Assembly: GCF_014170375.1 (NCBI RefSeq)
Contig: NZ_LZZW01000023.1
Span: forward strand, 62,001-126,000
Source: Variovorax sp. UMC13
Lineage (GTDB): Bacteria; Pseudomonadota; Gammaproteobacteria; Burkholderiales; Burkholderiaceae_C
Length of the DNA stretch: 64,000 nucleotides
Direction: 5' to 3'
Position numbers and translations under genes: made by a program. Below, in pieces: positions 23,466 to 49,585 of the stretch (positions within the stretch are counted from its first letter, which is position 1; each line of letters opens with the position of its first letter). The notes beneath the pieces were generated by a model, which did no database searches, had not been told where the DNA came from, and worked only from the letters and a program-made list of their open reading frames with translations.

Positions 23466-23486
23466 TTCGAAAGAATCTTCGAATGA

Positions 23487-23511
23487 AACCCCGCCTCGGC
23501 GGGGTTTTTTT
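23487..23511 (+). terminator. Rho-independent terminator after ompA
   Basis: AACCCCGCC-TC-GGCGGGGTTTTTTT: 7 bp GC stem plus a T run, 22 bases after the ompA stop. It separates ompA from ubiG and is why the upstream ATGs in the ubiG frame (23512 and 23527) are less likely starts. Confidence 0.92.
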
Positions 23512-23535
23512 ATGGGCTCTTCCATAATGGCTTCC

Positions 23536-24914: not shown

Positions 24915-24917
24915 AAT
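24891..24917 (+). promoter_or_regulatory. Likely ssrA promoter
   Basis: TTGCAA, a 15-base spacer, and TAAAAT, with the -10 placed 9 bases before the first base of tmRNA. It overlaps the end of gph. The match is reasonable for sigma-70, with a short spacer. Confidence 0.6.
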
Positions 24918-24926
24918 GGGAAGCTT

Positions 24927-25313: not shown

Positions 25314-25320
25314 CTCATGA

Positions 25321-25363
25321 CAACGCCTGCCAATGGGAGACCACTGGCAGGCGTTGTGTTTTT
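25321..25363 (+). terminator. ssrA terminator
   Basis: CAACGCCTGCCA and TGGCAGGCGTTG form a perfect 12 bp stem with a 12-base loop, followed by TGTTTTT. It lies just inside the element, so the present ssrA uses an element-supplied terminator; the host copy lies beyond attR. Confidence 0.9.
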
Positions 25364-25394
25364 CGGGCCCAGATGGTCACGTTTTGGCAGGCGT

Positions 25395-25435
25395 TTCGCA
25401 CCGATTTCGCACGCGGGACGGAGGAAATTCGCACG
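25395..25435. promoter_or_regulatory. Left arm-type integrase sites (three TTCGCAC repeats)
   Basis: TTCGCACC at 25395, TTCGCACG at 25406 and TTCGCACG at 25428, spaced 11 and 22 bases (one and two helical turns), between the att core and the integrase stop. Matching repeats lie inside the right end. This is the pattern of integrase arm-binding sites. Confidence 0.6.
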
Positions 25436-25448
25436 CGGTGCGAGGGTG

Positions 25449-26789
25449 TCAGGCCACGGCCTTGAGCCTTGGCGCCTTGGGCTTCTGGTAGTCCTCCGGG
25501 ATGAACTTCCCATAGGTCTGAAAGACCATCTGCACGTCGACGTGGCCAAGCTGCTCGGCCAGCCACCACGGGTTGGCGCCGGCCGTGAGCCTGGCACTTG
25601 CGTAGGTGTGCCTGGCTTGGTAGGGATTCCGATAGCGCACGCCGGAGCGCGCGAGCAGCGGCACCCACAGACCCTTGCGCAGCTGTGCGTCGGTCGTCCA
25701 GGGCTTGCCCGTGCGCGGGTTCAGGAAGATGTGGCCGTCGGCCGCCAAGCTGATCAGCTTCTGCGCCTCAAGCGCGGCCATGGCTAGGTCGCTGAGCTCG
25801 ACGTCGCGCACGCCGGCCTCGGTCTTCGGCCCCTTCTCCTGCCCCGCCACCTGATTCAGGTCGATCCGCACCTTGCCTGCAGCGAGGTTGGCCCGTGACC
25901 AGCGCAGCGCCTGGAGTTCCCCGGGCCGGACGCCGGTCTCCAGCCAGAACTGGACGGTGGGCCACTCGTCGGGCCGCGCCGCGGCGACCAGCTGGGCCCG
26001 CTCTGCCTCGGTGAACGGGTCGACCACGTACTTGCTGTCGGTCGCCGTTTGCTTGAGCAGCTTGGTCAAGGCAATCCGCTCGAACGGGTCGAACTTGATC
26101 AAGTCGTCGTTGAGCGCGTCCTCGAAGACGCTCCGGAAAGGCGTCAGCAGGTTGCGAGCGAACTTGGCCGTTACGGCCAGGTCGCTGATCCAGGCGCGCA
26201 GCATGCTCGGCGTCACTGAGCCGATGGCCTTGGTCCGCCAGTGCTTCATGCGCGTGCTGGTGAGCGCCTTGACGTAGCCGTCGTGCGTGCTCTGCGCCAG
26301 GGTTCCATTGGCGACCTGCGAGGCGTAGGTCTCGATCTGCTTGTCGATCAGCTTGCCAAGCAGCACGTGCTTTGGCAGCTCGTCGAACTGGGCCGCGCGC
26401 TGGCTCTCCGGAAAGTGCTCGGTGTATCGAAACTCGTCGTCAGCGATCTTGCGCTGGATCTCGGCCCGCAGGCCGGCCGCATAGGCCAGCGCGCTCTTGG
26501 TGATGCTGCAGGGCGGCAACAGCTCCCGGCACTCGACGCCGCGGAAGCTGAAGGCGATCTGGATCCGCTCCTCGGTCTTGAACTTCCGAATGCTCACGCC
26601 GCGAGGGGCTGTGAGGGCTGCGCTTGCCGTCGCACTCTTGCGGAAGAAGCAGTCGACGGTCGGCGTGATCACGACGATGTCAGAGCCGATCGCAGCCGCG
26701 GTGACGACGGCGACGCCGGCACCAGCCAGTGACAGCTTCTGCGAAGTGCCGGGCGTGGCGACCGCCAGCGTGTACTCGATGTTGTTCAT
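25449..26789 (-). CDS. Tyrosine integrase with a foreign phage-structural N-terminus
   Basis: 446 aa. Residues about 62-446 are a full phage integrase: an arm-binding N-domain (PRGVSIRKFKTEERIQIAFSF), a SAM-like core-binding domain, and a catalytic domain with Arg in TGVRPGELQALRW, RNPYQARHTYAS (Tyr in place of the usual His of HxxR, common in this family), LGH and the nucleophile Tyr426 in QTYGKF. The first 60 or so residues do not belong to integrases. They resemble a small phage head/tail protein (IVVITPTVDCFFRKSAT). The ATG overlaps the stop of the preceding phage gene by 4 bases, so the gene now starts with the structural gene's signals. The catalytic residues are intact, so it may still be active. 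Confidence 0.9.
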   Translation of the reverse strand: MNNIEYTLAVATPGTSQKLSLAGAGVAVVTAAAIGSDIVVITPTVDCFFRKSATASAALTAPRGVSIRKFKTEERIQIAFSFRGVECRELLPPCSITKSALAYAAGLRAEIQRKIADDEFRYTEHFPESQRAAQFDELPKHVLLGKLIDKQIETYASQVANGTLAQSTHDGYVKALTSTRMKHWRTKAIGSVTPSMLRAWISDLAVTAKFARNLLTPFRSVFEDALNDDLIKFDPFERIALTKLLKQTATDSKYVVDPFTEAERAQLVAAARPDEWPTVQFWLETGVRPGELQALRWSRANLAAGKVRIDLNQVAGQEKGPKTEAGVRDVELSDLAMAALEAQKLISLAADGHIFLNPRTGKPWTTDAQLRKGLWVPLLARSGVRYRNPYQARHTYASARLTAGANPWWLAEQLGHVDVQMVFQTYGKFIPEDYQKPKAPRLKAVA

Positions 26790-27247
26790 TCCGAAGCCTT
26801 TCGAATTGCGTAGAGCAAGATGTCTTGACCGTCCTTGCCGGCCTCGCGTTTCACACCCTCCAGTTCAAAGCCCAGCGACTCAGCGAACCTTGCTGCTTGG
26901 GTCCATGTCGCCAGGACGGTGCACTCGATGCGCCGCGTCGTCTGAAGCGCGTTGCCCCGGACTGTGCGGCAGAAGCGGAGAAGTTTTTTCCACGATTGGT
27001 GCGACATGGCGGGCGCCGCGACGAGCCACGCGGTCAGGGTCCATGCGTTGCTCTTCGACAGTCCTAGGATCGCCACAGGTCGGCCGCCCTGATAGAGCGA
27101 CCAGGCTGCGCCATCCGTCTGCCAGCGGTTCACCGCGAAGATTTCGGGGTCACAGAGCCCCGCGAGAGACGCGAGGCACTCACGATCCTCGTCTCTCATG
27201 CCGGCGCAAACCAGCACGGCGTCGGCGAGCGTGAGCTGCTGGAACAC
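26786..27247 (-). CDS. Phage GNAT-like (gp13-type) internal protein
   Basis: 153 aa. Weak GNAT-like features: a central AWSLYQGGRPVAILGLS strand pair and a C-terminal AARFAESLGFELEGVKREAGKDGQDILLYAI. This matches phage proteins related to T7 gp13, which are often GNAT folds without proven acetyl transfer. It is packed with 1- and 4-base overlaps between the hub-like gene and the chimeric integrase, so it belongs to the old late operon of the phage. The role in this remnant is unclear. Confidence 0.65.
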   Translation of the reverse strand: MFQQLTLADAVLVCAGMRDEDRECLASLAGLCDPEIFAVNRWQTDGAAWSLYQGGRPVAILGLSKSNAWTLTAWLVAAPAMSHQSWKKLLRFCRTVRGNALQTTRRIECTVLATWTQAARFAESLGFELEGVKREAGKDGQDILLYAIRKASE

Positions 27248-28584
27248 TACTGGGGGCCCAGAGCGAAATAGTAGATCGACAGCGCATCGAGCTCGAAAGC
27301 TTCATCGCGCGAGTGCCTGAACACCGGGGCGAACGCAGGCGCCATGACCTCGATCGGCTGCATGTCACCCGGCCGCGTGTCGCCCGTGATCGTCTGCGGC
27401 ACGGATTCCTTGGCCAGGTCGCGCGGGTCGTACTTCATCGAGAAATCCATGCTGCCCACCGCCACCAGGTCGGCGCCCCAGACCTGTTTGTTGATCCCCG
27501 GCGTCTTCGCGTCCTGGAAGGCCATCTGGATCTCGACCGGGACCAGCTGGTTCCCGTCGGTGTACTGCAGAGCGCTGACCTCGTAGAGGGTGTCGGTCGA
27601 TCGGACGTAGACCCGGCCGTCCAGCGTTGCCAGCGCGGAGATGCGAACCGGGAAGGTGTACTCGCTCCAGCAGGCGATCTTCGAAGACTTCGAGTAGGTG
27701 TAGGCCCAGACCTTGGAGTGGTCGCCCATGTCCATCACGAGCCAGTACTGGCCCAGCTGGTGGATCCAGACGCCGAACGAGTCGTAGGGGTCGGCCGCGG
27801 CATTCACTGCCGCCACGTCGGGCACCACCAGCTTGTCGATCGGGACGCCGACGTCGTTGTCGTCGATGCGGTTGGTCTGTGCCTGCACGGTCATCGTCCG
27901 CAGGCCGTAAGGAGACAGGAACATCAGATCGTTGGAGAACGGCGCGAGCGACAGAGGCGCCTGCGTGCCGACGCCGGAGATCCGCTTGCTCAGCACGTTC
28001 GCCGCGGGGTCGACCGCCACGTTCCAGATCTGCGCCTGCTCCGAGAAGAAGACGACAAGCGATTCCTGGAAGGTGCCGACCGCCGTGCATGCGCTCTTGG
28101 TGTCCGACTGAAGGCCAGCCGGCAAGAAGCCCGCATCGCTCGCCGTCGTCCAGTCGCGCGGGTCTCCGGCCTTGCAGTAGCGCACGTTCTCGCAGCCGAT
28201 GGCGAAGACCCGGCTCGCCGCCTTGGTGACGGAGTTCGACTGAGGGCAGTTTGCGTCCGTGATGGGCGTGGTCGGGTTCGCGTCGACGTAGTGGTGCCAG
28301 GTCACGCGGTTGGCATAGCGCGACACGACGTAGGGGTAGCCGTTGAACAGGTCAGCGTAGAGCACGCGGTCCAGGTCCGCGCCGGCCGCCGCCGCGGGCT
28401 TGTCGAGCTCGATCACGTCGCAGATGGAGGGCGGTACGAAGGCCGAGCCGCGGTCAACGAACAGCTTCAGCCGGCCGCTGATCGCTTCCAGGCCGTGCGA
28501 GCCCGTGAGGCCCGACACCACGGGCTTCAGCGCCGGCCGCTTGGCGATGCGCTTGCCCAGCGTGACATAGGCATTGCGCAGCAC
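27247..28584 (-). CDS. Phage tail-hub / DNA-stabilisation-like protein, probably 5'-truncated
   Basis: 445 aa, beta-rich, with repeated blocks such as FLSPYGLRTMTVQ, VYVRSTDTLYEVSALQY and NDLMFLSPYG. It looks like the head-completion or tail-hub proteins of short-tailed phages (P22 gp10 type); the fit is by general pattern, not by a firm motif. The start is a GTG (28582-28584) directly at a rearrangement joint, and the next bases belong to a gene read on the other strand. The true N-terminus may thus be missing. Confidence 0.55.
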   Translation of the reverse strand: MLRNAYVTLGKRIAKRPALKPVVSGLTGSHGLEAISGRLKLFVDRGSAFVPPSICDVIELDKPAAAAGADLDRVLYADLFNGYPYVVSRYANRVTWHHYVDANPTTPITDANCPQSNSVTKAASRVFAIGCENVRYCKAGDPRDWTTASDAGFLPAGLQSDTKSACTAVGTFQESLVVFFSEQAQIWNVAVDPAANVLSKRISGVGTQAPLSLAPFSNDLMFLSPYGLRTMTVQAQTNRIDDNDVGVPIDKLVVPDVAAVNAAADPYDSFGVWIHQLGQYWLVMDMGDHSKVWAYTYSKSSKIACWSEYTFPVRISALATLDGRVYVRSTDTLYEVSALQYTDGNQLVPVEIQMAFQDAKTPGINKQVWGADLVAVGSMDFSMKYDPRDLAKESVPQTITGDTRPGDMQPIEVMAPAFAPVFRHSRDEAFELDALSIYYFALGPQ

Positions 28585-28589
28585 CCATA

Positions 28590-28776
28590 ACCAACCAGCA
28601 GGCCAACTACCCGTGGCGCTCGGCTCATGACGGCCTGGCCCTCGACGAAGACCGCCTGATCCAGAACGGCATCGTCATCACCGACGACAAGGGCCCGACC
28701 AACGCCAGCCAGGCCGAGAAGATCCAGCTGACCAACCTGTTCGAAGAGCAGATGGAAGTGCTGCGCCTCGGCTTCC
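28590..28776 (+). pseudogene. Fragment of a phage capsid-type gene
   Basis: Reading T-N-Q-Q-A-N-Y-P-W-R from 28590, about 62 codons of a structural protein can be followed (LDEDRLIQNGIVITDD, AEKIQLTNLFEEQMEVLRLGF) before the frame is lost at 28776. There is no start codon in place at the left joint and no proper end. The segment looks like the N-terminal part of a phage coat protein. Two deletions have cut it: one at about 28585-28589 against the hub-like gene, one at about 28776 against the holin-like gene. Confidence 0.6.
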
Positions 28777-28842
28777 ACCCTGATCTTCGGCTACGCCTTT
28801 GCACCGCAGATCGCCGCGGTCGTCGCTCCCTACGTCCTGATC

Positions 28843-29136
28843 ATGGTGGCAGCTGTCGCCGGCTCGGCCATGCGCCTTGGCCAGATCGGCGCCACGCCGC
28901 GCGGCGGGTCGTTCTGGCTGGTCTTCTATTCGACCCTGATTGCGATGTGCTTCACGGTGCCCCTGGCGGCCTACAGCGCATCGAAGCTGACCGGCGTCAG
29001 CGAAGCCGGTCTCTACGGCTTCGTCTCCTTCGCTCTGGGCTACATCGGCGACCAGTGGCCACGGGTGCTCAAGTTCCTGGGCGGGCTGGTCAAGGCTGGT
29101 CTTGAGCTGGTCGTGAAGAAGGGGGCAGGGCAATGA
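28843..29136 (+). CDS. Holin-like membrane protein, 5'-truncated
   Basis: 97 aa from the first in-frame ATG, with about three hydrophobic segments and a charged C-terminus (LELVVKKGAGQ). In the same frame the reading continues upstream to 28777 with LIFGYAFAPQIAAVVAPY, which looks like the original first helix. The native start has therefore been lost at the capsid joint. Size, topology and the position ahead of an endolysin fit a holin. The stop overlaps the next start by 4 bases. Confidence 0.6.
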   Translation: MVAAVAGSAMRLGQIGATPRGGSFWLVFYSTLIAMCFTVPLAAYSASKLTGVSEAGLYGFVSFALGYIGDQWPRVLKFLGGLVKAGLELVVKKGAGQ

Positions 29137-29465
29137 GCACCGTCTACACCCTGGCCGGGCTGAACTTCATCATCTGCATCGGCATCGCGAGCTCGTGCAT
29201 CTGCCGGCTGGGCGCGGGCGACAAGCGGGTGCTGCGGCGCATCCGTGCCTTCTACCAGGCGTCGCTCGCCATCTCGATCACCGCCGCCCTCGGCCCGGTG
29301 CTTCCCATGTGGCTGCGCTTCTGGCCCGACATCGTGACCACGATCTTCGCGGGCGTCGTGTTCTTCGGCTTCCTGTGCGATGCGTACCGCTGGCGCCACG
29401 GCGCGCCGGCCGATGTGAAGAGCGATCACGCCCCGCTGTCTGAACTGCCGGAGATCAAGCCATGA
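29133..29465 (+). CDS. Second small phage membrane protein (holin/antiholin-like)
   Basis: 110 aa with three hydrophobic helices (about 5-22, 45-65, 70-88) and a hydrophilic, acidic tail. It is locked by 4-base overlaps between the first holin-like gene and the endolysin gene. A pair of small membrane proteins ahead of an endolysin is typical of a holin/antiholin set, but no specific family motif is visible. Confidence 0.65.
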   Translation: MSTVYTLAGLNFIICIGIASSCICRLGAGDKRVLRRIRAFYQASLAISITAALGPVLPMWLRFWPDIVTTIFAGVVFFGFLCDAYRWRHGAPADVKSDHAPLSELPEIKP

Positions 29466-30025
29466 AGACTCTAGTCCCTGAGGACTTCCAGCGCGCGGCC
29501 GATGCGCTGGGCGTCGATGTGCCGAGTATCAAGGCGGTGGCGCAGATCGAGGCGCCGAACGGCGGCTTCCTCTCCACTGGCGAGCCGACGATCTTGTTTG
29601 AGCGCCATGTCTTCAGCGAGCGCACGCAGGGTCGCTTTGACGCCACGCACCCGGACATCTCGAACCCCACCCCAGGCGGCTACGGGCGCACCTGGGAGCA
29701 GCATGCACGCCTCGCAGAGGCTGCGGCCCTTGACCGCACCGCAGCGCTCGAAGCAACTTCCTGGGGCAAGTTCCAGATCATGGGCTTCAACCACCAGACA
29801 GCCGGTTTCATGACACTGCAAGGTTTCATCAACGCGATGTACGCCAGCGAGGGGAAGCAGCTCGACGCATTCATCTCGTTTCTGAAGAACGACCGCGGCG
29901 GCGTGATGCAGCGCGCGCTCAAGGCGAAGGACTGGGCCACCTTCGCGAAGAACTACAACGGCCCCAGCTACGTGAAGAAAAACTACGACGAGCGACTGCG
30001 GGACGCCTACCGGGCGCTCGCATGA
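29462..30025 (+). CDS. Phage endolysin, N-acetylmuramidase (DUF3380) family
   Basis: 187 aa, a full-length single-domain muramidase. Glu30 in AVAQIEAPNGGF is the expected catalytic acid. The middle has ILFERHVFSERTQGRFDATHPDISNPTPGGYG and the later ATSWGKFQIMGFNHQTAGF, both hallmarks of this family. It would cut peptidoglycan after holin release; there is no signal peptide. Overlaps of 4 bases on both sides place it in the middle of the lysis cassette. Confidence 0.9.
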   Translation: MKTLVPEDFQRAADALGVDVPSIKAVAQIEAPNGGFLSTGEPTILFERHVFSERTQGRFDATHPDISNPTPGGYGRTWEQHARLAEAAALDRTAALEATSWGKFQIMGFNHQTAGFMTLQGFINAMYASEGKQLDAFISFLKNDRGGVMQRALKAKDWATFAKNYNGPSYVKKNYDERLRDAYRALA

Positions 30026-30420
30026 CGGCGGCCGTGCGCGCTCTGCTGGTGAACTGGAAGCTGCTGCTGATCGTCGTGCTGCTCGCCGCGGCCTTCTTCT
30101 ACGTCCAGCATCTTGAGCGATCGGCCGACTCCGCCGGCTACGCGCGATCGCAGGCCGAGTACGCCGCCGCGGCCGAGCTGCAGCGTGAGAGCAACCGCGG
30201 CCGCGCACACCAGGCCGAGGTCAAGGAAGCGGCGCAGACCGTCTACCGCGACCGCTACATCACCCGCACCGTGAAGGAGATCGAATATGTCACCCAGGAC
30301 CTTGCTGCCTGCCCTGTGCCTCCTGCTGCTGTGCGCATGCTCAACGACGCCGCCAAGTGCGCCAGCGAAGATCGACCCGCCTCCTGTGGGGCTCACGGCG
30401 GAGTGCGCTCGGCCGGCTGA
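30022..30420 (+). CDS. Rz-like inner-membrane spanin
   Basis: 132 aa. One N-terminal membrane anchor (LLLIVVLLAAAFFYV, about 14-28) is followed by a helical periplasmic part (AEYAAAAELQRESNRGRAHQAEVKEAAQTVY). This is the i-spanin layout used to fuse inner and outer membranes at lysis. A nested lipoprotein gene starts within it in another frame, which confirms the Rz/Rz1 arrangement. Confidence 0.82.
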   Translation: MTAAVRALLVNWKLLLIVVLLAAAFFYVQHLERSADSAGYARSQAEYAAAAELQRESNRGRAHQAEVKEAAQTVYRDRYITRTVKEIEYVTQDLAACPVPPAAVRMLNDAAKCASEDRPASCGAHGGVRSAG

Positions 30421-30535
30421 TCTGCGGCCACTGGCCAACGCGCAGGACCTGGCGGCCTGGGCCGTCGAATGGATCGGGGCCTACGGGTGCGAGCGCTCGA
30501 AGCGCGCTGGGCTGATCGAGGCGTGGCCCCGCTGA
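30287..30535 (+). CDS. Rz1-like outer-membrane spanin lipoprotein, nested in Rz
   Basis: 82 aa. Signal LLPALCLLLLCAC with lipobox L-C-A-C (Cys18), followed by a Pro-rich stretch (TTPPSAPAKIDPPPVG), as in Rz1 proteins. The first 134 bases overlap the Rz gene in another frame, and the gene extends 115 bases past the Rz stop. It completes a two-component spanin. Confidence 0.8.
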   Translation: MSPRTLLPALCLLLLCACSTTPPSAPAKIDPPPVGLTAECARPADLRPLANAQDLAAWAVEWIGAYGCERSKRAGLIEAWPR

Positions 30536-30629
30536 TCCTTCGTCCCATTCCCATCAGCCCCTGGCGCTTCGGTGCAGGACGGCGTGCAGGCCTATTGCAT
30601 GCATCCTTGCGCACGCGCACAGTGATCGG

Positions 30630-30851
30630 ATGAAGCAAGTGATGAGTATCCGACGAATGGTCGAGCTGTCGAACGCAGGTGGCAGTCCGTCTGCCGACGA
30701 GGCACTGGTTGTCCTCGCTGCCGTAATCGACCGTCTCGACACGAGCAGCGCCACCTATGAGGCCGATATCGAGGCGCTGATAGGCGTGGGTTCGGCGGTG
30801 TGGACGCTCAGCGGGCCGGGCAATGAACACGCTGGGTCGAGCCTTCGGTAG
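30630..30851 (+). CDS. Small hypothetical protein in the element
   Basis: 73 aa, no recognised domain. Predicted helical centre (ADEALVVLAAVIDRLDTSSATYEADIEALIGVG), which reads like a real coiled or packed helix pair. No strong ribosome site. The 94 bases before it, after the lysis cassette, show nothing definite. Confidence 0.35.
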   Translation: MKQVMSIRRMVELSNAGGSPSADEALVVLAAVIDRLDTSSATYEADIEALIGVGSAVWTLSGPGNEHAGSSLR

Positions 30852-30903
30852 CCTGGGCCCGGGAAAAAACCACACAGGCCCGGCGCAGGGAGTGAGTGAA
30901 ACG

Positions 30904-31161
30904 CTACGCGTCGATTGCCACCGGCGTGCCGTCGACAGCGATCAGCGCGCCCGGCGCTGCATCGTTGATCTCAATCGCCACACCCATGAAACGTGCTGGG
31001 TCGACCTGGGTCGCCTCGGTCTCGGTCTTCGTCATCTTCCGCCGGCGCATCAGGTCCGCGTGCTGCGAGGTCGACAGGACGAGCTTCTGCGGGTACTTGT
31101 TGTCGTGCGCTTTCCAGTGCGCAGACAGGGCCTTCGTGATCGCGTCGTAGATGTTGCTCAT
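30904..31161 (-). CDS. Small phage-type hypothetical protein
   Basis: 85 aa from MSNIYD. The sequence KALSAHWKAHDNKYPQKLVLSTSQHADLMRRRKM looks like a protein domain, with later FMGVAIEINDAAPGALIAVDG, but no family is recognised. The open frame continues 20 codons upstream with low-complexity residues, so the inner Met is preferred. No clear ribosome site. Confidence 0.45.
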   Translation of the reverse strand: MSNIYDAITKALSAHWKAHDNKYPQKLVLSTSQHADLMRRRKMTKTETEATQVDPARFMGVAIEINDAAPGALIAVDGTPVAIDA

Positions 31162-31278
31162 GCTGGCATTGTCGACGGCGCTGCTCGAGGCCTGGGACGC
31201 TGAATGCGCGCCGCTTCCCACCAGCCCCTGGCGCTTCGGCGCTGGGGGCGCTTTTTGCGTTGTGGGCCGGCTGGTCTT

Positions 31279-31494
31279 TCAGCTTTGTTCAGCGTTGACT
31301 GAATGCTCGAAGGTACGTCGCAGCTCAAGGAGCGCGCTCTCAGTCGTGTCCATCATGTCGGCCACCTCTTCGGGGGTCAGCTGAGGATACCCAGGCGTCG
31401 CGCGGAGAAAGTGATCCAGCTTTTCGCACGCAGACACCCAAGCGAGAGCAGCGACCTTCTGGTCTAGAGTGAGGTGGGGGTTGTTCTGTGGCAT
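31279..31494 (-). CDS. Small hypothetical protein
   Basis: 71 aa, helical throughout (LTLDQKVAALAWVSACEKLDHFL and LTPEEVADMMDTTESALLELRRTFEHS). The second half resembles a short helix-turn-helix, but no match to a known regulator is certain. It stands alone with 95 bases to the next gene. A GGAG lies 13 bases before the ATG. Confidence 0.45.
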   Translation of the reverse strand: MPQNNPHLTLDQKVAALAWVSACEKLDHFLRATPGYPQLTPEEVADMMDTTESALLELRRTFEHSVNAEQS

Positions 31495-31589
31495 TCCGGG
31501 ATACTAGCTCCGCGGTTGGCGGGCTAGGAAAATAGACGGCCGGTCGGAAGACGTGCCATCGCGCGAGGGTGAATGGTTGCTGCAGCCAC

Positions 31590-31841
31590 TCAGTGCTCGA
31601 ACAGCACGGCGCGAAGATGGTCCCCAACGGTGTCGTCTGGACATGATGGGTTCTCGTAGCCGTCAGCCACGCCAGCGCACAGGCTCACGACGCCGGCGCA
31701 GAGTTCCAGCACGTTCTGGTCGAGCTTGTCGCCCGGCTGGATCAGGCCACACTGCACGGCCAGGGCTGTGAACTTGGTCACCGGGTCGTGCAGGTCGTCC
31801 TGAGCTGCGCCCACGGGATCGGCGTCTTCGTTCTCGATCAT
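31590..31841 (-). CDS. Small acidic hypothetical protein
   Basis: 83 aa, acidic, with three Cys (QCGL, ELCAG, SLCAG). No recognised family. The start has a good AGGAG ribosome site five bases upstream, and the ATG overlaps the stop of the next gene by 4 bases, which supports real translation within a small minus-strand operon. Confidence 0.58.
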   Translation of the reverse strand: MIENEDADPVGAAQDDLHDPVTKFTALAVQCGLIQPGDKLDQNVLELCAGVVSLCAGVADGYENPSCPDDTVGDHLRAVLFEH

Positions 31842-32203
31842 GGTGCTCCTACGGTGGATGGAAAGGTTGTACGGTATTCATGCGGCGGAGGCGTCACTTC
31901 AACCGGCGGCGCGGGCATGCACCACCACACCTGCGGCGGGTCGGGCTGCTGGTAGCCGACTGCCTCGATGGCCCCGTAGATCAGGATGCCGCCATTCTCG
32001 ATCTTCTTGATGCTCGCGTGGATTAGGGGCTCGATGACGTCGACGCGGGTGCGCTCGGTCTCAAACAGCCTGGCGACGGCGCGTGGGTAGAACTTGCGGC
32101 GGTCGTCGCCGAAGAACAGCCAGCCCGGGTAAGGGCGGCTCTGCACTACGTCCCGCGGCAGCTTCTTGCCCGCCTCGCGCAGGACGTAGACGACGCAGTG
32201 CAT
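31838..32203 (-). CDS. Hypothetical protein
   Basis: 121 aa of unknown function, with a mixed fold suggested by PYPGWLFFGDDRRKFYPRAVARLF and HASIKKIENGGILIYGAIEAVGY. The Pro-rich tail (PPVEVTPPPH) is likely disordered. It lies 6 bases after the upstream gene and overlaps the following one by 4, so it is the middle gene of a three-gene unit. Confidence 0.55.
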   Translation of the reverse strand: MHCVVYVLREAGKKLPRDVVQSRPYPGWLFFGDDRRKFYPRAVARLFETERTRVDVIEPLIHASIKKIENGGILIYGAIEAVGYQQPDPPQVWWCMPAPPVEVTPPPHEYRTTFPSTVGAP

Positions 32204-32209
32204 GGCTGG

Positions 32210-32551
32210 TCAGAAAGGCACATCGGAGCTCGGTAGCCCGAACTCGGGAGGCGGGGCAGGCTCCTCCGCGCGCGCGGTTTCCAGCGGGTCGGCGTCATCG
32301 CCGGCATGAGCGGGATAGAGGTCGTCGTTGTACTCGCCGGCTTCTGGGTACAGACGGCGCGCGACGGCTGCAGGGTCCTCGTCTCCATGCTTCGCGGCCA
32401 CAGCCGGGCCGAAGACGTTGAAGCCCGCCATGCGCAGGTCCTCGGGGTCGTGCTCGAGCTCCTGCCAGGTGTTGGCGAACACAAAGACCCAGGCTTCCAG
32501 GTCGGATAGCTCGCGGCCGCGATACGAGATCGGGGTGGGGGATTGCCACAT
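32210..32551 (-). CDS. Hypothetical protein, first gene of a three-gene phage unit
   Basis: 113 aa, acidic, unknown family (ELSDLEAWVFVFANTWQELEHDPEDLRMAGF is the ordered part; the C-terminal half is Ala/Asp/Pro-rich). The start MWQSP is chosen because AGGAG lies 6 bases ahead; an ATG two codons earlier would sit on the ribosome site itself. Confidence 0.55.
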   Translation of the reverse strand: MWQSPTPISYRGRELSDLEAWVFVFANTWQELEHDPEDLRMAGFNVFGPAVAAKHGDEDPAAVARRLYPEAGEYNDDLYPAHAGDDADPLETARAEEPAPPPEFGLPSSDVPF

Positions 32552-32578
32552 GGTCATCTCCTGAAGTGGCCCTCCACT

Positions 32579-32590
32579 GTATCCGGATAC
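32579..32590. promoter_or_regulatory. 12 bp palindrome between divergent element genes
   Basis: GTATCCGGATAC, a perfect palindrome in the 74-base gap between the minus-strand trio (start 32551) and the plus-strand gene at 32626. The place and symmetry fit an operator controlling both directions. No repressor gene is identified in the element. Confidence 0.45.
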
Positions 32591-32625
32591 TGTACGGGCA
32601 TCCAGTAGTTTGCTACGATCGATCC

Positions 32626-32865
32626 ATGGACACCGATCGCGGAACCGGCATCCTGGACACTGTGCCCGGTCAGTTCGTGGTGCGCGCCATGTACTCGCTG
32701 CCGCCGGCGGGAGAGGTCCAGCCGCCCGAGGCGTCGCTGGAGATGTTCGTGCCCAGAGTGGGCCGCGTGCGCTTCACGTTCGAGCTCGCCGGCCCGGTTC
32801 CACACAAGCGTGCGCATTGGTGCTGGCAGGCGAAGTCCGCCGACTTGCTGCCGGGCAGGGCCTGA
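32626..32865 (+). CDS. Small hypothetical protein upstream of SRAP
   Basis: 79 aa from MDTDRG. Beta-rich look (VPGQFVVRAMYSLPPAGEV and RVGRVRFTFELAGPVPHKRAHWCWQAK). Family not recognised. It ends 13 bases before the SRAP gene and is probably co-transcribed with it from the palindrome-bearing gap. Confidence 0.5.
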   Translation: MDTDRGTGILDTVPGQFVVRAMYSLPPAGEVQPPEASLEMFVPRVGRVRFTFELAGPVPHKRAHWCWQAKSADLLPGRA

Positions 32866-32878
32866 GTAAGCTGCGGCC

Positions 32879-33562
32879 ATGTGCAATCGCTATATCCCTC
32901 CCGAGGTGGCCGAGATCGAGCGTTTCTGGAGCCTGCCCCGGGCGCATCAGCCTGACCTGTGGCCGCGCGAGATCTTCCCCCGGGCGCCGGGCCCGTTCAT
33001 TCGCCGCCGGCGGGACGCTGTGGGCTACGAGCGCGAGCTCGTCGTCGGGCAGTGGGGCCTGATCCCCTGGTTCGCCAAAGAGCCGAAGCTCAAGTTCCCC
33101 ACGAACAACGCGCGCAGCGAGGAGTTGGAGGCGAAGGCCAGCTACAAGGACCCTTGGAAGCGCGGTCAGCGCTGCATCATCCCGGCCGCCACCTTCGACG
33201 AGCCTAACTGGGAGAGCGGGAAGAACGTGTGGTGGCGCTTCCGCCGCGCGGATGGCGCGCCTTGGGGACTGGCTGGTCTGTGGAACACCTGGACCGACAA
33301 GGCCACGGGTGAGGTTCACGAGAGCTACACCATGCTCACGGTGAACGCGGACGCTGACCCGCTGATGAGCCGCATGCACAAGCCCGAGCCGAAGCTGGCG
33401 GCCGACAAGCAGGACAAGCGGAGCGTGATCCCGCTGCAGCCGGGCGACTTCGACCAGTGGCTCGAGGGGACGGTCGAGCAGACGAAGGTGCTGATGCGGT
33501 TGGCGCCGACCGAGGTGTATGGAGCCGGGCCGATGGAGCCCTTGCAGCAGGCGCTGAAGTAG
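32879..33562 (+). CDS. SRAP (YedK/HMCES-type) DNA abasic-site crosslinking protein
   Basis: 227 aa. Starts Met-Cys-Asn-Arg-Tyr; Cys2, exposed when Met is removed, forms the covalent link to abasic sites in single-stranded DNA. Other family points: TNNARSE (about 75-81), the acidic residue in FDEP (Glu108, where YedK has FYEW), and a His at 167 in RMHKPEP. The usual H-x-R-M-P is altered here. It protects broken replication forks. SRAP genes are common as accessory cargo in phages. The start is fixed by the need for Cys at position 2. Confidence 0.9.
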   Translation: MCNRYIPPEVAEIERFWSLPRAHQPDLWPREIFPRAPGPFIRRRRDAVGYERELVVGQWGLIPWFAKEPKLKFPTNNARSEELEAKASYKDPWKRGQRCIIPAATFDEPNWESGKNVWWRFRRADGAPWGLAGLWNTWTDKATGEVHESYTMLTVNADADPLMSRMHKPEPKLAADKQDKRSVIPLQPGDFDQWLEGTVEQTKVLMRLAPTEVYGAGPMEPLQQALK

Positions 33563-33637
33563 CGCGCTCTACAGCCCAGTCCAGTCGATCCACTTCGGCT
33601 CAAGCAACGAGCCCTGCCGGGCAACACCTCAGAAACA

Positions 33638-33664
33638 GAAACGGCCCGCTAAGCGGACCGTTTC
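33638..33664 (+). terminator. Possible terminator hairpin after SRAP
   Basis: GAAACGG and CCGTTTC form a 7 bp stem around CCCGCTAAGCGGA, which itself can pair partly. No T run follows, so it may be only a structured end. It lies 76 bases after the SRAP stop. Confidence 0.4.
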
Positions 33665-33730
33665 AGGGGAAATGGGTAGCTGCGTTCCTGAGTTATCCGC
33701 CGGAGCCACCGCCGTTGTGGAGCTTGAACT

Positions 33731-34888
33731 TCATAGAGGATTCCTTTCCGTGGTTGAGGGAAGCGAGGGAGTAGAGGCTATCACAGCATCCATGCCCTTG
33801 CCAGCAACTTCTGTTACGTTCTGTGGCAGCTTCGCTGGCGACCACCAGAACGCAACAGACTGGTGAGGAAGCATGCCGTTGTCTAGCGACCACTCATGTA
33901 GGGATTCGTCCCGTTTCCTGTACTTCAGCTTGGATGAGTTGTTGGCGGTTGCGTCCAGTTTCAAGCCCCCTCCGGGAACAATTACAGCGAGTTTCAGCTT
34001 CTCTGTGGGAAGCATAGAGCACCAAACCTCTGTGTCGAATAAGTTCTTCAAAAAATATGCTTCGGTCGCAACCTCAATGTTTTCACGAATTCCGAGCGTG
34101 ACCATTTTTTGAAAGACTAATGAAGTTCGATCATCTGCGCCCGCTCTAATTGCCTCGCCTGGGTTAATATGCTCCTCCCACTCGGTTTGACCCTGACGTT
34201 TAGTGGCAAACCTAGTGATTGCGCATTCTTTGTTTAATTCAGGAAGAGGGGGTAGTTCAATATATACGCCGAAGTTATGTGTTATTGACCCCATTGTTAT
34301 ATTGCATGCTTCATATCGTGACGACTGAGATACCCTTATCAACGAAGCAGAGGGGTAGTTTGGATGTTGTACGGAAGGGTTGTCGATCATCTCAAGCTTG
34401 TAGGTGACCTCGGCGTTGTCCCTTCCAACTTTTGAATCGAACAGTGAAGTCTGAAGCTCAGCGCGGACGCTTGGTGATATCTGTCGTCTAAATATCGCCA
34501 TGAAAAGATCTTTATTTATCTCTTCAATCTGAAGTTTTGTTTGCGCCTCATGACGGGCTTTCGAATACCTTTCTAGTACAAAAATCAGCACGATCGCAAC
34601 TAGGCCTGCGAAGCCCAACTCCTTGAGAACGGTGCGTATCCAATAGGGGAATTCTGAGAACCATTCGTGGTGGCTGCCAACTACAAGGATGACGGATAGC
34701 GCAAAAACTATTAGCAGATGCTCGCGTGCACTTATGCGAATTGCGTCGAGACTCATCGCGTCGGTCTTTATGTCGTTTTGTTGCCTTTTCTGTCTTACCC
34801 AGCGGTAGATTAATAGAACGAGAGCGACCACACCTACTAACGCAAGTACGACTATCGAAAGTTCGACTAGCCTCGGGAATGTTTGCAT
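33731..34888 (-). CDS. AT-rich membrane protein of unknown function (element cargo)
   Basis: 385 aa. Three likely membrane helices: about 8-28 (LSIVVLALVGVVALVLLIY), 57-73 (LLIVFALSVILVVGS) and 94-112 (LGFAGLVAIVLIFVLERY), the last one running into a charged helix (KARHEAQTKLQIEEINKDLF). A soluble, probably beta-rich domain of about 250 residues follows. No enzyme motif is seen. Base composition is clearly more AT-rich than the rest of the window, with codons such as ATA and AGA/AGG that neighbours avoid, so it came from another source. Its place near the element end, outside the phage modules, is typical of a lysogen-benefit or defence gene, but that is inference. Start at MQTFPR; an earlier non-ATG start is possible. 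Confidence 0.75.
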   Translation of the reverse strand: MQTFPRLVELSIVVLALVGVVALVLLIYRWVRQKRQQNDIKTDAMSLDAIRISAREHLLIVFALSVILVVGSHHEWFSEFPYWIRTVLKELGFAGLVAIVLIFVLERYSKARHEAQTKLQIEEINKDLFMAIFRRQISPSVRAELQTSLFDSKVGRDNAEVTYKLEMIDNPSVQHPNYPSASLIRVSQSSRYEACNITMGSITHNFGVYIELPPLPELNKECAITRFATKRQGQTEWEEHINPGEAIRAGADDRTSLVFQKMVTLGIRENIEVATEAYFLKNLFDTEVWCSMLPTEKLKLAVIVPGGGLKLDATANNSSKLKYRKRDESLHEWSLDNGMLPHQSVAFWWSPAKLPQNVTEVAGKGMDAVIASTPSLPSTTERNPL

Positions 34889-35151
34889 AGGGTTTCTCAG
34901 TTTTGTGTAGTGGCGAGGATACGCCAAATGTCTCTGCCTGTTACGTATCGGCGGGTGGCTGTGCGCTTAAAGCTTCGATCAGCCACTACCTCAAGATGGC
35001 TGCTTAGCTGAAGGGCGTGAGAACGGGCAGTTCAAGGGTGACGAAGAGAACGCGGATCCATTGGGTGAGGCATGGCGCACCGACGTAGAAATCGGTTTCA
35101 CTCGGATTGCTACGGACTACTAGGTAACGGTTTTGGCGCTAAGCTTTTGTC
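34889..35151. other. AT-richer non-coding gap
   Basis: 263 bases between the cargo membrane gene and a small plus-strand gene. It should hold the cargo promoter on the minus strand. I see no convincing -10/-35, repeat or RNA gene. Confidence 0.4.
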
Positions 35152-35388
35152 ATGACCGATTACTTCCGCTCCGTCTCTGTCCGGGTCACCGAGCCGGTGC
35201 GGGGCCGCTTCTACTGGGCCATAGTCGAAAACTTGGGCGTCGCGACCAAATTCAATGAGCTGGCGACAGCTGCTGCGCACTTCGACACCTGGGAGGCGGC
35301 GCGCCAGGCCGGCGTAGCTGAGCTGCGGCGGCGCGAGCCCGAGTTGTGGGGGACGCCGTCGGCAAGTCGGGCGCCCGATGCTGGCTAA
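35152..35388 (+). CDS. Small hypothetical protein at the element's right end
   Basis: 78 aa, probable small alpha/beta protein (GRFYWAIVENLGVATKFNELATAAAHFDTWEAARQAGVAELRRR). It resembles short phage-encoded proteins of unknown function. No strong ribosome site. Last gene before attR. Confidence 0.45.
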   Translation: MTDYFRSVSVRVTEPVRGRFYWAIVENLGVATKFNELATAAAHFDTWEAARQAGVAELRRREPELWGTPSASRAPDAG

Positions 35389-35415
35389 AAGCACAGTGGC
35401 GCGGCGCGGCTCAAA

Positions 35416-35434
35416 TTCGCACGTGATTCGCACG
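35416..35434. promoter_or_regulatory. Right arm-type integrase sites (two TTCGCACG repeats)
   Basis: TTCGCACG at 35416 and 35427, again 11 bases apart, about 36 bases before the attR core. Same octamer and spacing as at the left end. Confidence 0.6.
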
Positions 35435-35469
35435 CGCAACGCGCAGCCCACGGTATAGCTAGAGCGGAT

Positions 35470-35497
35470 GGGGGTTCAAATCCCCCCAGCTCCACCA
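35470..35497 (+). other. attR core: second copy of the ssrA 3' end
   Basis: Exact repeat of 25286-25313, in direct orientation, with near-identical flanks (GCGGAT versus GCGGAC before, TTCATGAC versus CTCATGAC after). It carries no tRNA-like body, so it is only the displaced 3' end. Confidence 0.92.
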
Positions 35498-35504
35498 TTC
35501 ATGA

Positions 35505-35547
35505 CGACGCCTGCCACTGGGAAACCACTGGCAGGCGTTGTGTTTTT
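35505..35547 (+). terminator. Displaced second copy of the ssrA terminator
   Basis: Same stem as at 25321-25363 with an ACGCCTGCCA/TGGCAGGCGT core, three base changes, and TGTTTTT after it. It was part of the att region before insertion and now has no RNA gene in front of it. Confidence 0.8.
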
Positions 35548-35604
35548 CGGGATCGGATGGTCGCTGTCGGGAAGGCGATTCGCACCGGTTTCGCCTGCGG
35601 CAAG

Positions 35605-35640
35605 GGTGACCGCCTCGAGCCGCGGCGCTCGGGGGATCTG
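35605..35640 (-). pseudogene. Remnant of a second, related integrase C-terminus
   Basis: On the minus strand this reads Q-I-P-R-A-P-R-L-E-A-V-T, against Q-K-P-K-A-P-R-L-K-A-V-A at the end of the element's integrase, with the same distance and order to the TTCGCACC repeat (35579) and the ssrA end. A stop codon lies just upstream (35644-35646), and the rest of the gene is gone. Confidence 0.55.
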
Positions 35641-35705
35641 ACATCACTTCGGGATGACCTCGATCGGGGTGCGCAGCCCTACGGCACTGCGCGGGCAGAA
35701 ACCGA

Positions 35706-35834
35706 TCAACCGATGAACGCAAGGCTGAGCAGCATGGTCAGCGCGATCACTGTGACAAACACCGCCAGTTCCTTCATGGCCGCCCGCGGTGCCTCTTCTC
35801 CAAGCCGTCTTCTTCTCGGTGACTGGGGCTTCAT
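35706..35834 (-). CDS. Tiny single-helix membrane protein
   Basis: 42 aa, too short for ordinary gene calling. The N-terminus is basic (SPRRRRLGEEAPRAA), followed by one clear membrane helix (LAVFVTVIALTMLLSLAFIG) ending at the stop. A shorter 23 aa form could start at the inner ATG (35777). Sequence character supports a real small inner-membrane protein; no function known. Confidence 0.4.
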   Translation of the reverse strand: MKPQSPRRRRLGEEAPRAAMKELAVFVTVIALTMLLSLAFIG

Positions 35835-35942
35835 GTGCAATCTTTTTACTTACCTATTTGCGATGGTAGGTAGTTTGTTGCAGCGCGTCCCTCCCATGTT
35901 CATGGGAGGTCTTCCAACCGACCGCGGCGATTCAGGCGGAAC

Positions 35943-36422
35943 TCAGCTGCAGCCGCGCGCGGCGCACTGCCGGCGCGCCTCTTCGACTTCGGCCTGAAGT
36001 TCGCGGGCGCGGGTTTCGCACCGCGTCGCCGCCGCGGCGGCTTCCGTGGCGACCGACGGCTCGAGCACGGCGCCGGCGAGATTGTGGTGGGCTCGCGCGC
36101 GGTTGGACAGGATCTCGCGCTGCTGGCGATCGCAGGAGTTCCGATGGCGGGAAAGATCCTCGATCCTGTCGCGCAGCACATCGGTCGCGTCGGTCCGAAG
36201 CCGCTCGGCTTCGGCTTCCTTGAGTGGCTGTTGCAGGGCCGGGCCCGGCGCGCCCTCGCCGGGTTTGCGCGCCTCGGCCAGGGGCTGGATGGCGGTTTGG
36301 GCCTGCGAGCGTTCGCAAGGCGCTTCCTGAAAGCTGGTCGACCCGCCGGTGCCGACGCATGGGTGGCGTGCCCATGAGGACTGGGTGGCGAGCACGAACA
36401 GGGCGGCGATCAGGTAGCGCAT
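35943..36422 (-). CDS. Exported coiled-coil protein of unknown function
   Basis: 159 aa. Signal peptide ending near SSWARH (about 19). A short N-terminal segment, HPCVGTGGSTSFQEAPC, has two Cys and the look of a DUF4124-type start. A long, charged, Cys-containing helix follows (RTDATDVLRDRIEDLSRHRNSCDRQQ, later ARELQAEVEEARRQCAARGCS). Probably periplasmic. An AGGA ribosome site precedes the ATG. It lies outside the element in a patch of small genes. Confidence 0.7.
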   Translation of the reverse strand: MRYLIAALFVLATQSSWARHPCVGTGGSTSFQEAPCERSQAQTAIQPLAEARKPGEGAPGPALQQPLKEAEAERLRTDATDVLRDRIEDLSRHRNSCDRQQREILSNRARAHHNLAGAVLEPSVATEAAAAATRCETRARELQAEVEEARRQCAARGCS

Positions 36423-36546
36423 GAAATTTCCTCGTCTTTAGGCTGCACTGTAGTGGACGCGTGCGTGCCTGCGGGCGGGCGGCCCCGTCCGCCTCCAGGC
36501 CGCCGGCGCGGCGTCGTGTCGTGTCGGACCGCGTGGCCTGCCGATG

Positions 36547-36735
36547 TCACGCCGGGTCATCGTCGCGCGCAGGCGCGGTTCGGGGCGTAACCTTCCGCTG
36601 GGCCATCAAGGCGAGCACCCCGGCGGGAACCGGCCGGCAGCCACAGTGTCTTGCATGTTCCATGTGCCAAGCCATCCGTTGCGCGACGGTTGGAGACTTG
36701 GGCATGGGATGGGCTTCGTGCCAAACGCGGTTCAT
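36547..36735 (-). CDS. Small conserved protein with Cys-x-Cys (VWHEAHPMP type)
   Basis: 62 aa from MNRVWHEAHPMPKSPTVAQRMAWHMEHARHCGCRPVP. This start pattern (W-H-E-x-H-P-M-P, then a helix ending H-C-G-C-R) recurs in small bacterial proteins of unknown function, and the His/Cys set suggests metal binding. A strong GGAGGG ribosome site sits 3 bases ahead. Confidence 0.7.
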   Translation of the reverse strand: MNRVWHEAHPMPKSPTVAQRMAWHMEHARHCGCRPVPAGVLALMAQRKVTPRTAPARDDDPA

Positions 36736-36943
36736 CTTCCCTCCAATCCTCTGGGGCGGCAGCAATGCGAGTCCAGTCTAGGTGGTCTTCGGCGTGGGGG
36801 GCTTGACGGCGGTCAATTCGATCCGCGCACCCGCAAACCCGTCCACGACGCCTGCGGACACAGGGCGCGTTCGCACGCGTAGGGCCCTTGCTGCCCGCCT
36901 TGTCGGCCTGCGCAGGGCCCGTCATGTGACGCCGGCCTACAGC

Positions 36944-36970
36944 CATTTCGTTTTCATTGAAAACAAAATG
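36944..36970. repeat. Imperfect inverted repeat before a small gene
   Basis: CATTTCGTTTTC-ATT-GAAAACAAAATG: 12-base arms with one mismatch around a 3-base centre, AT-rich in a GC-rich area, ending 5 bases before the ATG at 36976. It could be an operator or an RNA hairpin covering the start. Confidence 0.5.
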
Positions 36971-36975
36971 ACTAC

Positions 36976-37179
36976 ATGGAAATCCTGGATGACGAAGAGC
37001 TGGCCTCTGCGGCGTATGTGCTGCGGATTCGTGCCGCCCATGGCGATCGCGAGGCCTTGCGCGAAGCCGAACGGCTCGAAGGGATCCTGAAGGCCCGGCT
37101 CGGTCCCACGCCTTCGGGCCATGCGCCGCTGGAGGCCGGGCAGGGCGAGCGCAAGCCATGGTGGCGCTTTTGGTCGTGA
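36976..37179 (+). CDS. Small hypothetical protein
   Basis: 67 aa. Two helices (DDEELASAAYVLRIRAAHGDREALREAERLEGILKARL) and a C-terminal PWWRFWS. No family recognised. The AT-rich inverted repeat lies right at its 5' side and may control it. Confidence 0.45.
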   Translation: MEILDDEELASAAYVLRIRAAHGDREALREAERLEGILKARLGPTPSGHAPLEAGQGERKPWWRFWS

Positions 37180-37206
37180 TGTGTGGATGGAGCCGGAGCT
37201 AGCGCC

Positions 37207-37386
37207 ATGGATTGGGTGCCATTGGCCTGGGTCGCGTTGGGCGCCACCTTCTCCGCCAGCTGTTTGGGCCTCTACGCGCGGCTCAGCGCCGCGGCGAGGG
37301 CGTTCGACCGGGACCTGATGCTCCTTGCGGCGGTGGGTGCCTCGCTGGGAGTGCTCACGGCTTCGAGGCCGCAATGGATGTGGTGA
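37207..37386 (+). CDS. Small two-helix membrane protein
   Basis: 59 aa from MDWVPLAWVALGATFSASCLGLY, with a second hydrophobic stretch (LMLLAAVGASLGVLTA). A GGAG lies 10 bases ahead of the ATG. Unknown family; it follows the previous small gene by 27 bases and may be co-transcribed. Confidence 0.45.
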   Translation: MDWVPLAWVALGATFSASCLGLYARLSAAARAFDRDLMLLAAVGASLGVLTASRPQWMW

Positions 37387-37420
37387 GGGGGCCAGCCGCC
37401 TCAGCACGCGGGGCCGTCGC

Positions 37421-37942
37421 TCAGGGGCGCTCGGGCTGGAGCTCGCCCGCATAGCACTCGGGGCTCTGCTCGCTGCCTTGCACGCAGTCCGAGTGCCGGT
37501 AGAGCGCCTCGATCTCGAGCACCGGGACCGGCTTGCCCACCACGTGCTGCGAGCCGACCACCCGGCCTCCGATGCTCAGCAGGGTGAACGGCGCCACTAG
37601 GTTTCGGTCGTAGTCCCCCGGGCCGCAGGCGACGAAGTACTGCGGGTCGCGGGACCACTGCAGCACCTGCCGCGCATCGAAGGTGGCGTGCAGCAGCGTG
37701 AAGCATTGGCGTGCGCCTTCGCGCGCCTCGATGGTGTGGATGCCGCCGCTCCAGCGCACCCGCGTGCCCTGGGCCGAAGGCGACAGCGCCTGGGCGGGCA
37801 AGAGGTCTGCCACCGGCGCTTGCGGCTTTGTGGCGGCGATGGGGGAAGAGGGGGCGGCGCGATCGGTGGGTGTGGCGCAAGCCGCGAGCAGGACACAAGC
37901 GCCAAGGATGGCGCAGAGGCGTGGAGGTCGGTGAGGTGGCAT
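37421..37942 (-). CDS. Slp-like outer membrane lipoprotein
   Basis: 173 aa. Lipoprotein signal with lipobox LLAAC (Cys22). The mature part resembles Slp/YeaY lipoproteins: TRVRWSGGIHTIEARE, a central CFTLLHATFD, and DRNLVAPFTLLSIGGRVVGSQ. Two further Cys near the C-terminus may pair (RHSDCVQGSEQSPECY). Slp proteins sit on the outer membrane and rise in starvation or acid stress in enterobacteria; the role here is unknown. Confidence 0.7.
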   Translation of the reverse strand: MPPHRPPRLCAILGACVLLAACATPTDRAAPSSPIAATKPQAPVADLLPAQALSPSAQGTRVRWSGGIHTIEAREGARQCFTLLHATFDARQVLQWSRDPQYFVACGPGDYDRNLVAPFTLLSIGGRVVGSQHVVGKPVPVLEIEALYRHSDCVQGSEQSPECYAGELQPERP

Positions 37943-38090
37943 CGTTTCATCCTAGCGCGGCGATGACGCGCTGCTCGTGAAAGTGCACGACGCCGACGAC
38001 ATCGAATTTATAATTCGAATTACTGCTCTGAAAACCTGTAGCGCCACGCATCGGGCTCGCGCGCGGTGGCAGGAGTGCCGAAAGCAGACC

Positions 38091-38306
38091 GTGAGATTTG
38101 TCGTCATTCCCGAATCGAAGAATTGCTGGATCTGGGAGCTCCGCAGCGCGCAGGATTTCCTCGTATTGAGGAGCCCGGGCAGCTTTACCGCCAAGTTCCA
38201 GGCCGTGGCCCAGATCGAGGCCTTGCGGCGCGCCATCCACGTCGCCGGCATCTACGATCTGGTGGGCGCCCGGGTGGACGCGCAGGCGGTGCGGGTCACG
38301 TCCTAG
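38091..38306 (+). CDS. Small hypothetical protein
   Basis: 71 aa from a GTG. Compact alpha/beta pattern (RFVVIPESKNCWIWELRSAQDFLVLRSPGSFTAKFQAVAQIEALRRAIHVA), reminiscent of the short YegP/DUF1508 fold but not a firm match. The open frame extends upstream without protein character, which is why the GTG is chosen. Confidence 0.5.
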   Translation: MRFVVIPESKNCWIWELRSAQDFLVLRSPGSFTAKFQAVAQIEALRRAIHVAGIYDLVGARVDAQAVRVTS

Positions 38307-49335: not shown

Positions 49336-49585
49336 GCGCGCAGTGTGCTGCAGCCAAGGGGCGGTCCACGTAAGCGAAGACCACGAATCAGCGGACAGGC
49401 GTTGTCCGACGTGGCGGATCGGCCTGGGCGAGGGCCGCGGCCCCCCAGAGCCTGAGCTGCATGCCTGCGCCCGCCGCAATCCCGTCCAGAAAGTGCGTAT
49501 TTCCGGCGCCGGGCCGGAGGTGGCGTTCTAGGATCGGTCCAACGTCGCGCGGTGTGCGCGGCGAAAAAATCTCCAGGACAACCTC

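Follow-up and report, generated by a model that had tools for sequence, protein, structure and literature searches.

The analysed stretch of DNA, called the window in the following, comprises 64 kb on contig C23 of a 7.14-Mb Variovorax genome (G000). It contains the tmRNA gene ssrA, followed by an integrated element of about 10.2 kb between two att cores. The features of this element and its target gene are:

24927 to 25313, plus strand: intact tmRNA gene ssrA (ARAGORN), encoding the tag ANDERFALAA and providing the attachment site with its 3' end.
25281 to 25313, plus strand: left att core, the ssrA 3' end brought by the present element; 27 nt are an exact copy of the right core, with 1 mismatch over 25281-25313.
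25314 to 25365, plus strand: terminator hairpin of the present element, now 3' of ssrA (first 62 nt fold with -30.6 kcal/mol; T5 run).
25395 to 25434, plus strand: three TTCGCAC repeats (25395, 25406, 25428), probable arm-type integrase sites, at +82, +93 and +115 as in G016, G032 and G058 (one variant word in G016).
25449 to 26789, minus strand: live tyrosine integrase of 446 aa, encoded by the present element (PF12167 Arm-DNA-bind_2, PF00589 Phage_integrase, phrog_1).
35416 to 35433, plus strand: right arm of the present element, a pair of TTCGCAC repeats spaced by 11 bp inside attR (from the sequence; nhmmer match at 35411-35441, E = 0.014).
35465 to 35497, plus strand: right att core, the displaced older ssrA 3' end; 35471-35497 is an exact copy of 25287-25313.

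Besides the integrase, the element carries genes for a muramidase-type endolysin, an Rz-like spanin, and a protein matching an internal virion protein family. We found no match to terminase, portal, or tail families among the 12 proteins of the element that were tested. Judged by its gene content, the element (25314-35464) is a reduced prophage or satellite. It also encodes an SRAP-domain protein (32879-33562). The target gene is regenerated, its displaced 3' fragment lies in the same orientation, and the integrase is located inside, which identifies the element at the sequence level as a tmRNA-gene genomic island with a tyrosine integrase and predicted mobility. The TTCGCAC repeats are putative arm-type sites that would be bound by the arm domain of the integrase. 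A scan of named genomes with this integrase found no relative, the relatives among phage records were all below 60% identity, and a plasmid search with the right flank gave no match.

The sequence to the right of attR resembles the left end of the present element. This short segment, referred to as the scar, consists of three parts, whose assignment to an older element is argued below:

35498 to 35550, plus strand: terminator hairpin of the probable older element, sharing 50 of its first 56 nt with the live hairpin (first 62 nt fold with -31.7 kcal/mol; T5 run).
35579 to 35596, plus strand: TTCGCAC repeats, one intact (35579, +82) and one damaged (35590, +93), in register with those of other elements.
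35605 to 35661, minus strand: 19 codons of what appears to be a former integrase C-terminus, with an in-frame stop and the terminal stop lost; 38 of 57 positions identical to the live gene, unique in the window.

Alignment of 25280-25520 with 35440-35720 yielded a single block that includes the att core, spans the terminator, and extends into the C-terminus of the integrase. The similarity extends over about 160 bp from the end of the core at 35497. Compared to the live left end, the scar lacks 31 bp, in gaps of 24 and 7 bp, and the third TTCGCAC repeat is part of this missing sequence. Of the repeat positions typical of the element family (+82, +93, and a third at +103 to +115), the scar thus retains an intact repeat at +82 and a damaged one at +93. 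As in intact left ends, the hairpin follows the ssrA end immediately, and the remnant of the integrase 3' end is found on the opposite strand at the same place just past the repeats. The codon stretch pairs without gaps with 25452-25508. The live integrase ends in KFIPEDYQKPKAPRLKAVA followed by its stop codon, and the scar reads EVIPK, an in-frame TGA stop, and CQIPRAPRLEAVT. Upstream of this stretch, agreement between scar and live codons is lost.

To the right of the terminator, local alignment of the two sequences (170 versus 130 nt) scored 31.5. The highest score among 3378 control stretches from the window (overlapping, both strands) was 22.0, and that among 2000 single-base shuffles was 21.0. 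When the window was scanned on both strands with the 57-nt codon stretch, 38 identities were reached by the integrase and the scar only, and nowhere else were 35 reached. An earlier note on this DNA had proposed that the similarity continues beyond the terminator, a claim that would have fallen had it stopped there; since the alignment runs on into the integrase C-terminus, it holds. The peptides were given correctly in that note, while the span of 35579-35646 has to be extended at its end, as the codon remnant reaches slightly further, to 35661.

In order to compare the scar with other left ends, we collected related elements. Within the genus, left ends with related integrases were found in G016, G032, G058, and G099. 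At E ≤ 1e-60, a search of 399 genomes of the family identified related integrases in 11, one of which is the genome studied here; nine of the other ten were used and G177 (37% identical) was omitted. An ssrA-type core with 0 to 3 mismatches lies near the integrase in all nine family loci. The words TTCGCAC, CTCGCAC, or TTCACAC occur at +81 or +82 in seven of the nine, and some loci contain further words at +92/93 and +103 to +105. G179 and G447 lack an exact word and by reading have ATCGCAC or ATCACAC in its place. Within the genus, the repeats of G016, G032, and G058 are at +82, +93, and +115, and those of G099 at +93 and +105. The ssrA elements of genus and family (G016, G032, G058, G099; G261, G421, and others) encode integrases 55-70% identical to the present one, adjoin an ssrA-type core, and share with the scar the order of hairpin, repeats, and integrase 3' end. 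Their left ends run into the integrase gene without an internal stop, except for that of G271 with one stop, whereas the scar retains 19 codons only; in G099 the contig ends inside the integrase gene.

The first 62 nt were folded for 17 left ends, that is, for these 13, the live end, the scar, and the left ends of G007 and G052 described below. All 17 form a stem. A run of at least four T is present in 11 and absent in G421, G016, G032, G058, G099, and G052, so that not all of them are textbook terminators. A test for better conservation of the terminator compared to the repeat region gave p = 0.07 for the scar versus the live end and 0.07-0.08 for the other pairs; selection on the terminator is therefore not demonstrated.

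A profile was built from the 13 left ends, leaving out this genome and G007, and was searched against the whole window together with five other flanks. Its two best places in the window were the live end (E = 3.3e-73) and the scar (35500-35594, E = 4.6e-7), followed by the inner right arm of the present element (0.014) and a further place at 0.37. Because the profile excludes this genome, the scar is recognised as an element left end independently of the live copy. The match covers terminator and repeats, and the codon remnant is identified only by comparison with the live copy in the same genome. With a smaller profile from three left ends the scar was not found (E = 7.4). Pairwise comparison of the scar with G016, G032, G058, G099, and G052 was not significant, the scores being reached by 28 to 316 of 500 controls. 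Past the terminator, the scar and G007 scored 29.5, which none of 500 controls reached. Of all left ends in the comparison, the scar is close only to the live end and to that of G007.

G007, the representative of another species, does not contain the present element. Directly 3' of its ssrA lies a left end of 86-89% similarity, with no integrase match. Both 23393-25467 and 35464-35594 of the window align to a single G007 stretch, which leads from the upstream genes through ssrA, and the parts of it that they match overlap; in G007 the site is thus seen free of the present insertion but bearing a left end of the scar type. A CI-like S24 repressor is encoded within 3.5 kb past this left end. The G007 left end agrees with the live end at 54 of 56 terminator positions and 41 of 48 positions of the repeat region, compared to 50 of 56 and 36 of 48 for the scar. 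Among 104 ungapped positions there are 12 at which only the scar deviates, 3 at which only the live end does, 3 at which only G007 does, and 3 with a different letter in each of the three sequences. In terms of sequence, this pattern fits a scar that decays faster, yet it is not decisive on whether a single insertion took place. Beyond the left end, the window and G007 sequences differ except for a stretch of 105 bp, and from 49468 to 63.0 kb they are syntenic in the same order at 85-90% identity. G007 contains an extra segment of about 7 kb ahead of the methyltransferase side.

Across the genus, ssrA was matched in 99 of 101 genomes. A second core match was obtained in 13 genomes, of which nine were accepted (G000, G016, G029, G032, G034, G041, G058, G061, G081); G056 was dropped with 4 mismatches, and G042, G045, and G048 because the core lies within a permuted tmRNA gene. 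In G016, G029, and G041, the second core and ssrA are on different contigs. G058 contains three ssrA 3' cores (contig C1; L040, L041, L042) at 4.563, 4.588, and 4.646 Mb, with distances of about 25 and 58 kb between them, and thus apparently has an array at ssrA. Cores two and three have one terminator type in common.

The permuted second tmRNA genes of G045, G048, and G042 occur besides an ordinary ssrA match and were reported by ARAGORN as tmRNA*, a mark which we take to denote a permuted tmRNA gene:

L055, 4403 to 4736, minus strand: second tmRNA gene.
L056, 1920 to 2256, plus strand: second tmRNA gene.
L057, 4995 to 5329, minus strand: second tmRNA gene.

Their tags are ANDSFYLKQA, ANDSFYLKQAT, and ANDSIYLKQA in G045, G048, and G042, respectively. 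The usual tmRNA tag ends in LAA, and the tags of these genes do not.

We read 99 downstream flanks of 1.4 to 4 kb each; those of G072, G041, G029, G050, G099, and G020 are cut by contig ends at 127 to 1351 nt. An integrase of the present element's family, or a fragment of one, is present in ten of them (G000, G016, G024, G032, G034, G058, G061, G081, G087, G099). Three of the ten are broken: G024 and G061 contain broken integrases and G087 a short fragment. Left ends with repeats but no integrase occur in G007 and G052. At least two repeat words are found in the first 200 nt of 11 of the 99 flanks compared to 5 of 1111 later control windows, and nine of these 11 flanks also contain an integrase or a piece of one. 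The broken and fragmentary integrases together with the integrase-less left ends indicate that element decay at ssrA is not rare. In G052 (L184), a hairpin and two in-register repeats lie 3' of ssrA, with no integrase found. The view that the ssrA end is a repeated entry point, put forward in the earlier note, is thus borne out for the genus by the second cores in 9 of 101 genomes and the family integrases in 10 of 99 flanks.

A flank type starting with ACATAACG was considered as the native empty site and dropped; flanks vary, and the common flank leads to the methyltransferase gene. It was also considered as a second element type, and no integrase-like ORF of at least 200 aa was seen by reading at four loci. 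A search with the flank of L044 did not locate the original flank of this genome.

From its sequence, the segment 35498-35661 is very likely a left end in decay, derived from an older integrative element at the same ssrA 3' end. The order of its parts corresponds to that of intact elements, in damaged form: att core, hairpin, repeats at fixed distance, and the integrase 3' end on the opposite strand. The decayed end of a related element adjoins the present insertion, which points to successive use of one entry point; two related mobile elements probably entered at the same ssrA site one after the other. The profile, the G007 left end, and the genus flanks thereby agree with the earlier claim that a related element once sat here and that the present one landed on its att site.

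Could the scar instead be ordinary host flank, with a native terminator and repeats captured by the element such that attP resembles attB over 160 bp? The presence of such a flank right after ssrA in both G000 and G007 could make it native to the lineage. However, the same layout beside an integrase 3' end is also found in elements of other genera, the repeat words are confined to few flanks of which most carry integrase sequence, and integrase codons would not be expected in host flank, so we regard this origin as improbable. Equally improbable is a decayed copy of the present element's own left end, arising by tandem double insertion or end duplication. Such an origin would suit the closeness of the scar to the live end and G007 and its lack of significant similarity to any further left end that was compared singly. 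Near-identity would be expected of a recent self-copy, though, and the live end shares fewer positions with the scar in both regions than with G007, a different species representative. Chance similarity past the terminator, to which the shortness of the codon stretch and the variable C-terminal tail of these integrases could be thought to lend room, is negligible in view of the profile match, the uniqueness of the 38 of 57 identities, and the score, which no control stretch or shuffle reached.

Compatible with a decayed older left end is a variant in which the scar and the G007 left end stem from separate insertions rather than from one ancestral event. Of the 104 positions, 12 group the live end with G007 to the exclusion of the scar, and only 3 group the scar with G007 to the exclusion of the live end; in addition, the sequences past the left end differ between the two genomes apart from the 105-bp stretch. 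The same place, the same element subgroup, and the synteny from 49.5 to 63.0 kb speak for a common event, and we give the variant slightly less than an even chance.

To the right of the scar, the following features were distinguished:

35662 to 38306, no strand assigned: small-gene patch with matches to other chromosomal places; membership in the older element is unsupported.
49468 to 60060, no strand assigned: accessory block of 10.6 kb with NorR, flavohaemoglobin, porin, argininosuccinate-lyase-like protein, and regulators (names from ORF reading), at the same place in G007.
60878 to 62473, plus strand: methyltransferase gene (PF10119, PF21782), a conserved flank lying at most 1.3 kb from ssrA in 16 of the 30 flanks compared.

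The earlier note had taken the small-gene patch for a possible remainder of the older insert, and this we could not support. About 2.0 of its 2.6 kb have matches in relatives or in contig C13 of the same genome, with identities of 83 and 79% to G007:C3, 80% to G007:C10, and 75-78% to C13; the part at 37.4-37.8 kb is matched in five other genomes at 76-80%. These matches sit on contigs without ssrA or about 660 kb from it (G091), while in the draft genome G099 the distance could be smaller. Five ORFs of the patch that were tested have no PHROG match and no Pfam match above the cut-off. Against this outcome stands one observation: 38092-38195 matches the ssrA interval of G007 over 105 bp at 74% in opposite orientation, which makes G007 the only one of 99 ssrA flanks matching the patch. 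We give this match little weight because it falls in a multi-copy gene (37977-38306) whose best G007 copy lies 79 kb from ssrA. Matches to this small gene number 11 in this genome and 8 in G007, yet within the genus they occur in only 7 of 101 genomes; it has no Pfam or PHROG match. The segments 35700-35909 and 38086-38278 are 75-78% similar to 53355-53562 and 53666-53858 of C13 in the same genome, and are spaced by about 2.2 kb here and by about 100 bp there.

Further right, a transporter operon begins at 38.7 kb, which the 17 best-matching genomes place on a contig without ssrA or at least 93 kb away. The NorR and flavohaemoglobin part at 50.0-54.3 kb has a match in 54 of 101 genomes at E ≤ 1e-100, and apart from G000 and G007 the places listed are on contigs without ssrA or at least 270 kb from it (G063, which has no ssrA match, is exempt from this comparison). 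The methyltransferase gene is 25.4 kb to the right of attR here and about 23 kb from ssrA in G007. Since the patch segments, the operon, and the NorR part match elsewhere and the methyltransferase flank is displaced, the interval 35.7-60 kb is, as far as these comparisons reach, accessory DNA, in which the element signatures tested for were found in the 160-bp scar only.

We propose the following course of events. The older element would have integrated at ssrA by means of its own integrase and supplied a new 3' end together with its own terminator. Most of it would then have been deleted, including the distal att and nearly all of the integrase, with the left end staying in place. Finally, the present 10.2-kb element would have recombined into the ssrA 3' end, shifting the old 3' end and the scar 10 kb to the right. 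The locus would thus preserve a time order at one integration hotspot, from an older element reduced to a 160-bp scar to a newer relative at the same place, and the hairpin that the older element placed behind ssrA would still be kept in the scar. Integrase-less left-end scars were seen in three places, namely the right flank in G000, G007, and G052. There is a slim chance that such scars are not mere dead residue: they might persist since ssrA has come to rely on the element terminator, and a scar attB with arm-type sites could favour re-entry by elements of the same integrase family.

Similar situations are known. In Dehalococcoides, passages of a study on ssrA-specific islands describe multiple tandem islands 3' of ssrA that have ssrA or a 20-bp direct repeat of it as their boundaries (PMC3146451). 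According to the same passages, the integration module adjoins attL on the reverse strand, some islands are without the module, and loss of signatures by deletion and amelioration has been proposed (PMC3146451). The islands described there use a serine recombinase (DsiB; PMC3146451), in contrast to the tyrosine integrase with arm-binding domain found here, and the older element of our window has shrunk to about 160 bp. The Islander paper states that no tRNA isoacceptor type is as strongly enriched among targets as the tmRNA gene, and it tabulates 125 tandems of two or more and 3919 islands (PMC4383910). The arrays treated there share with our locus the tmRNA target, the tyrosine integrase, the displaced 3' fragment, and several islands per gene, but each member needs its own integrase and fragment (PMC4383910). 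The older element has 19 integrase codons with a stop in place of an intact integrase, and no distal att fragment of its own: a third att core, of which the earlier note had seen none up to 38.7 kb, was not found in the 64-kb window at up to 3 mismatches, and a genome-wide ssrA search at E ≤ 0.001 listed no further core. A scar of this kind would therefore go uncounted by an Islander-like method that requires both parts, and past insertions at tmRNA genes may for this reason be undercounted. As serial entry at tmRNA genes is already known, the scar adds one more case to it, ordinary and well supported.
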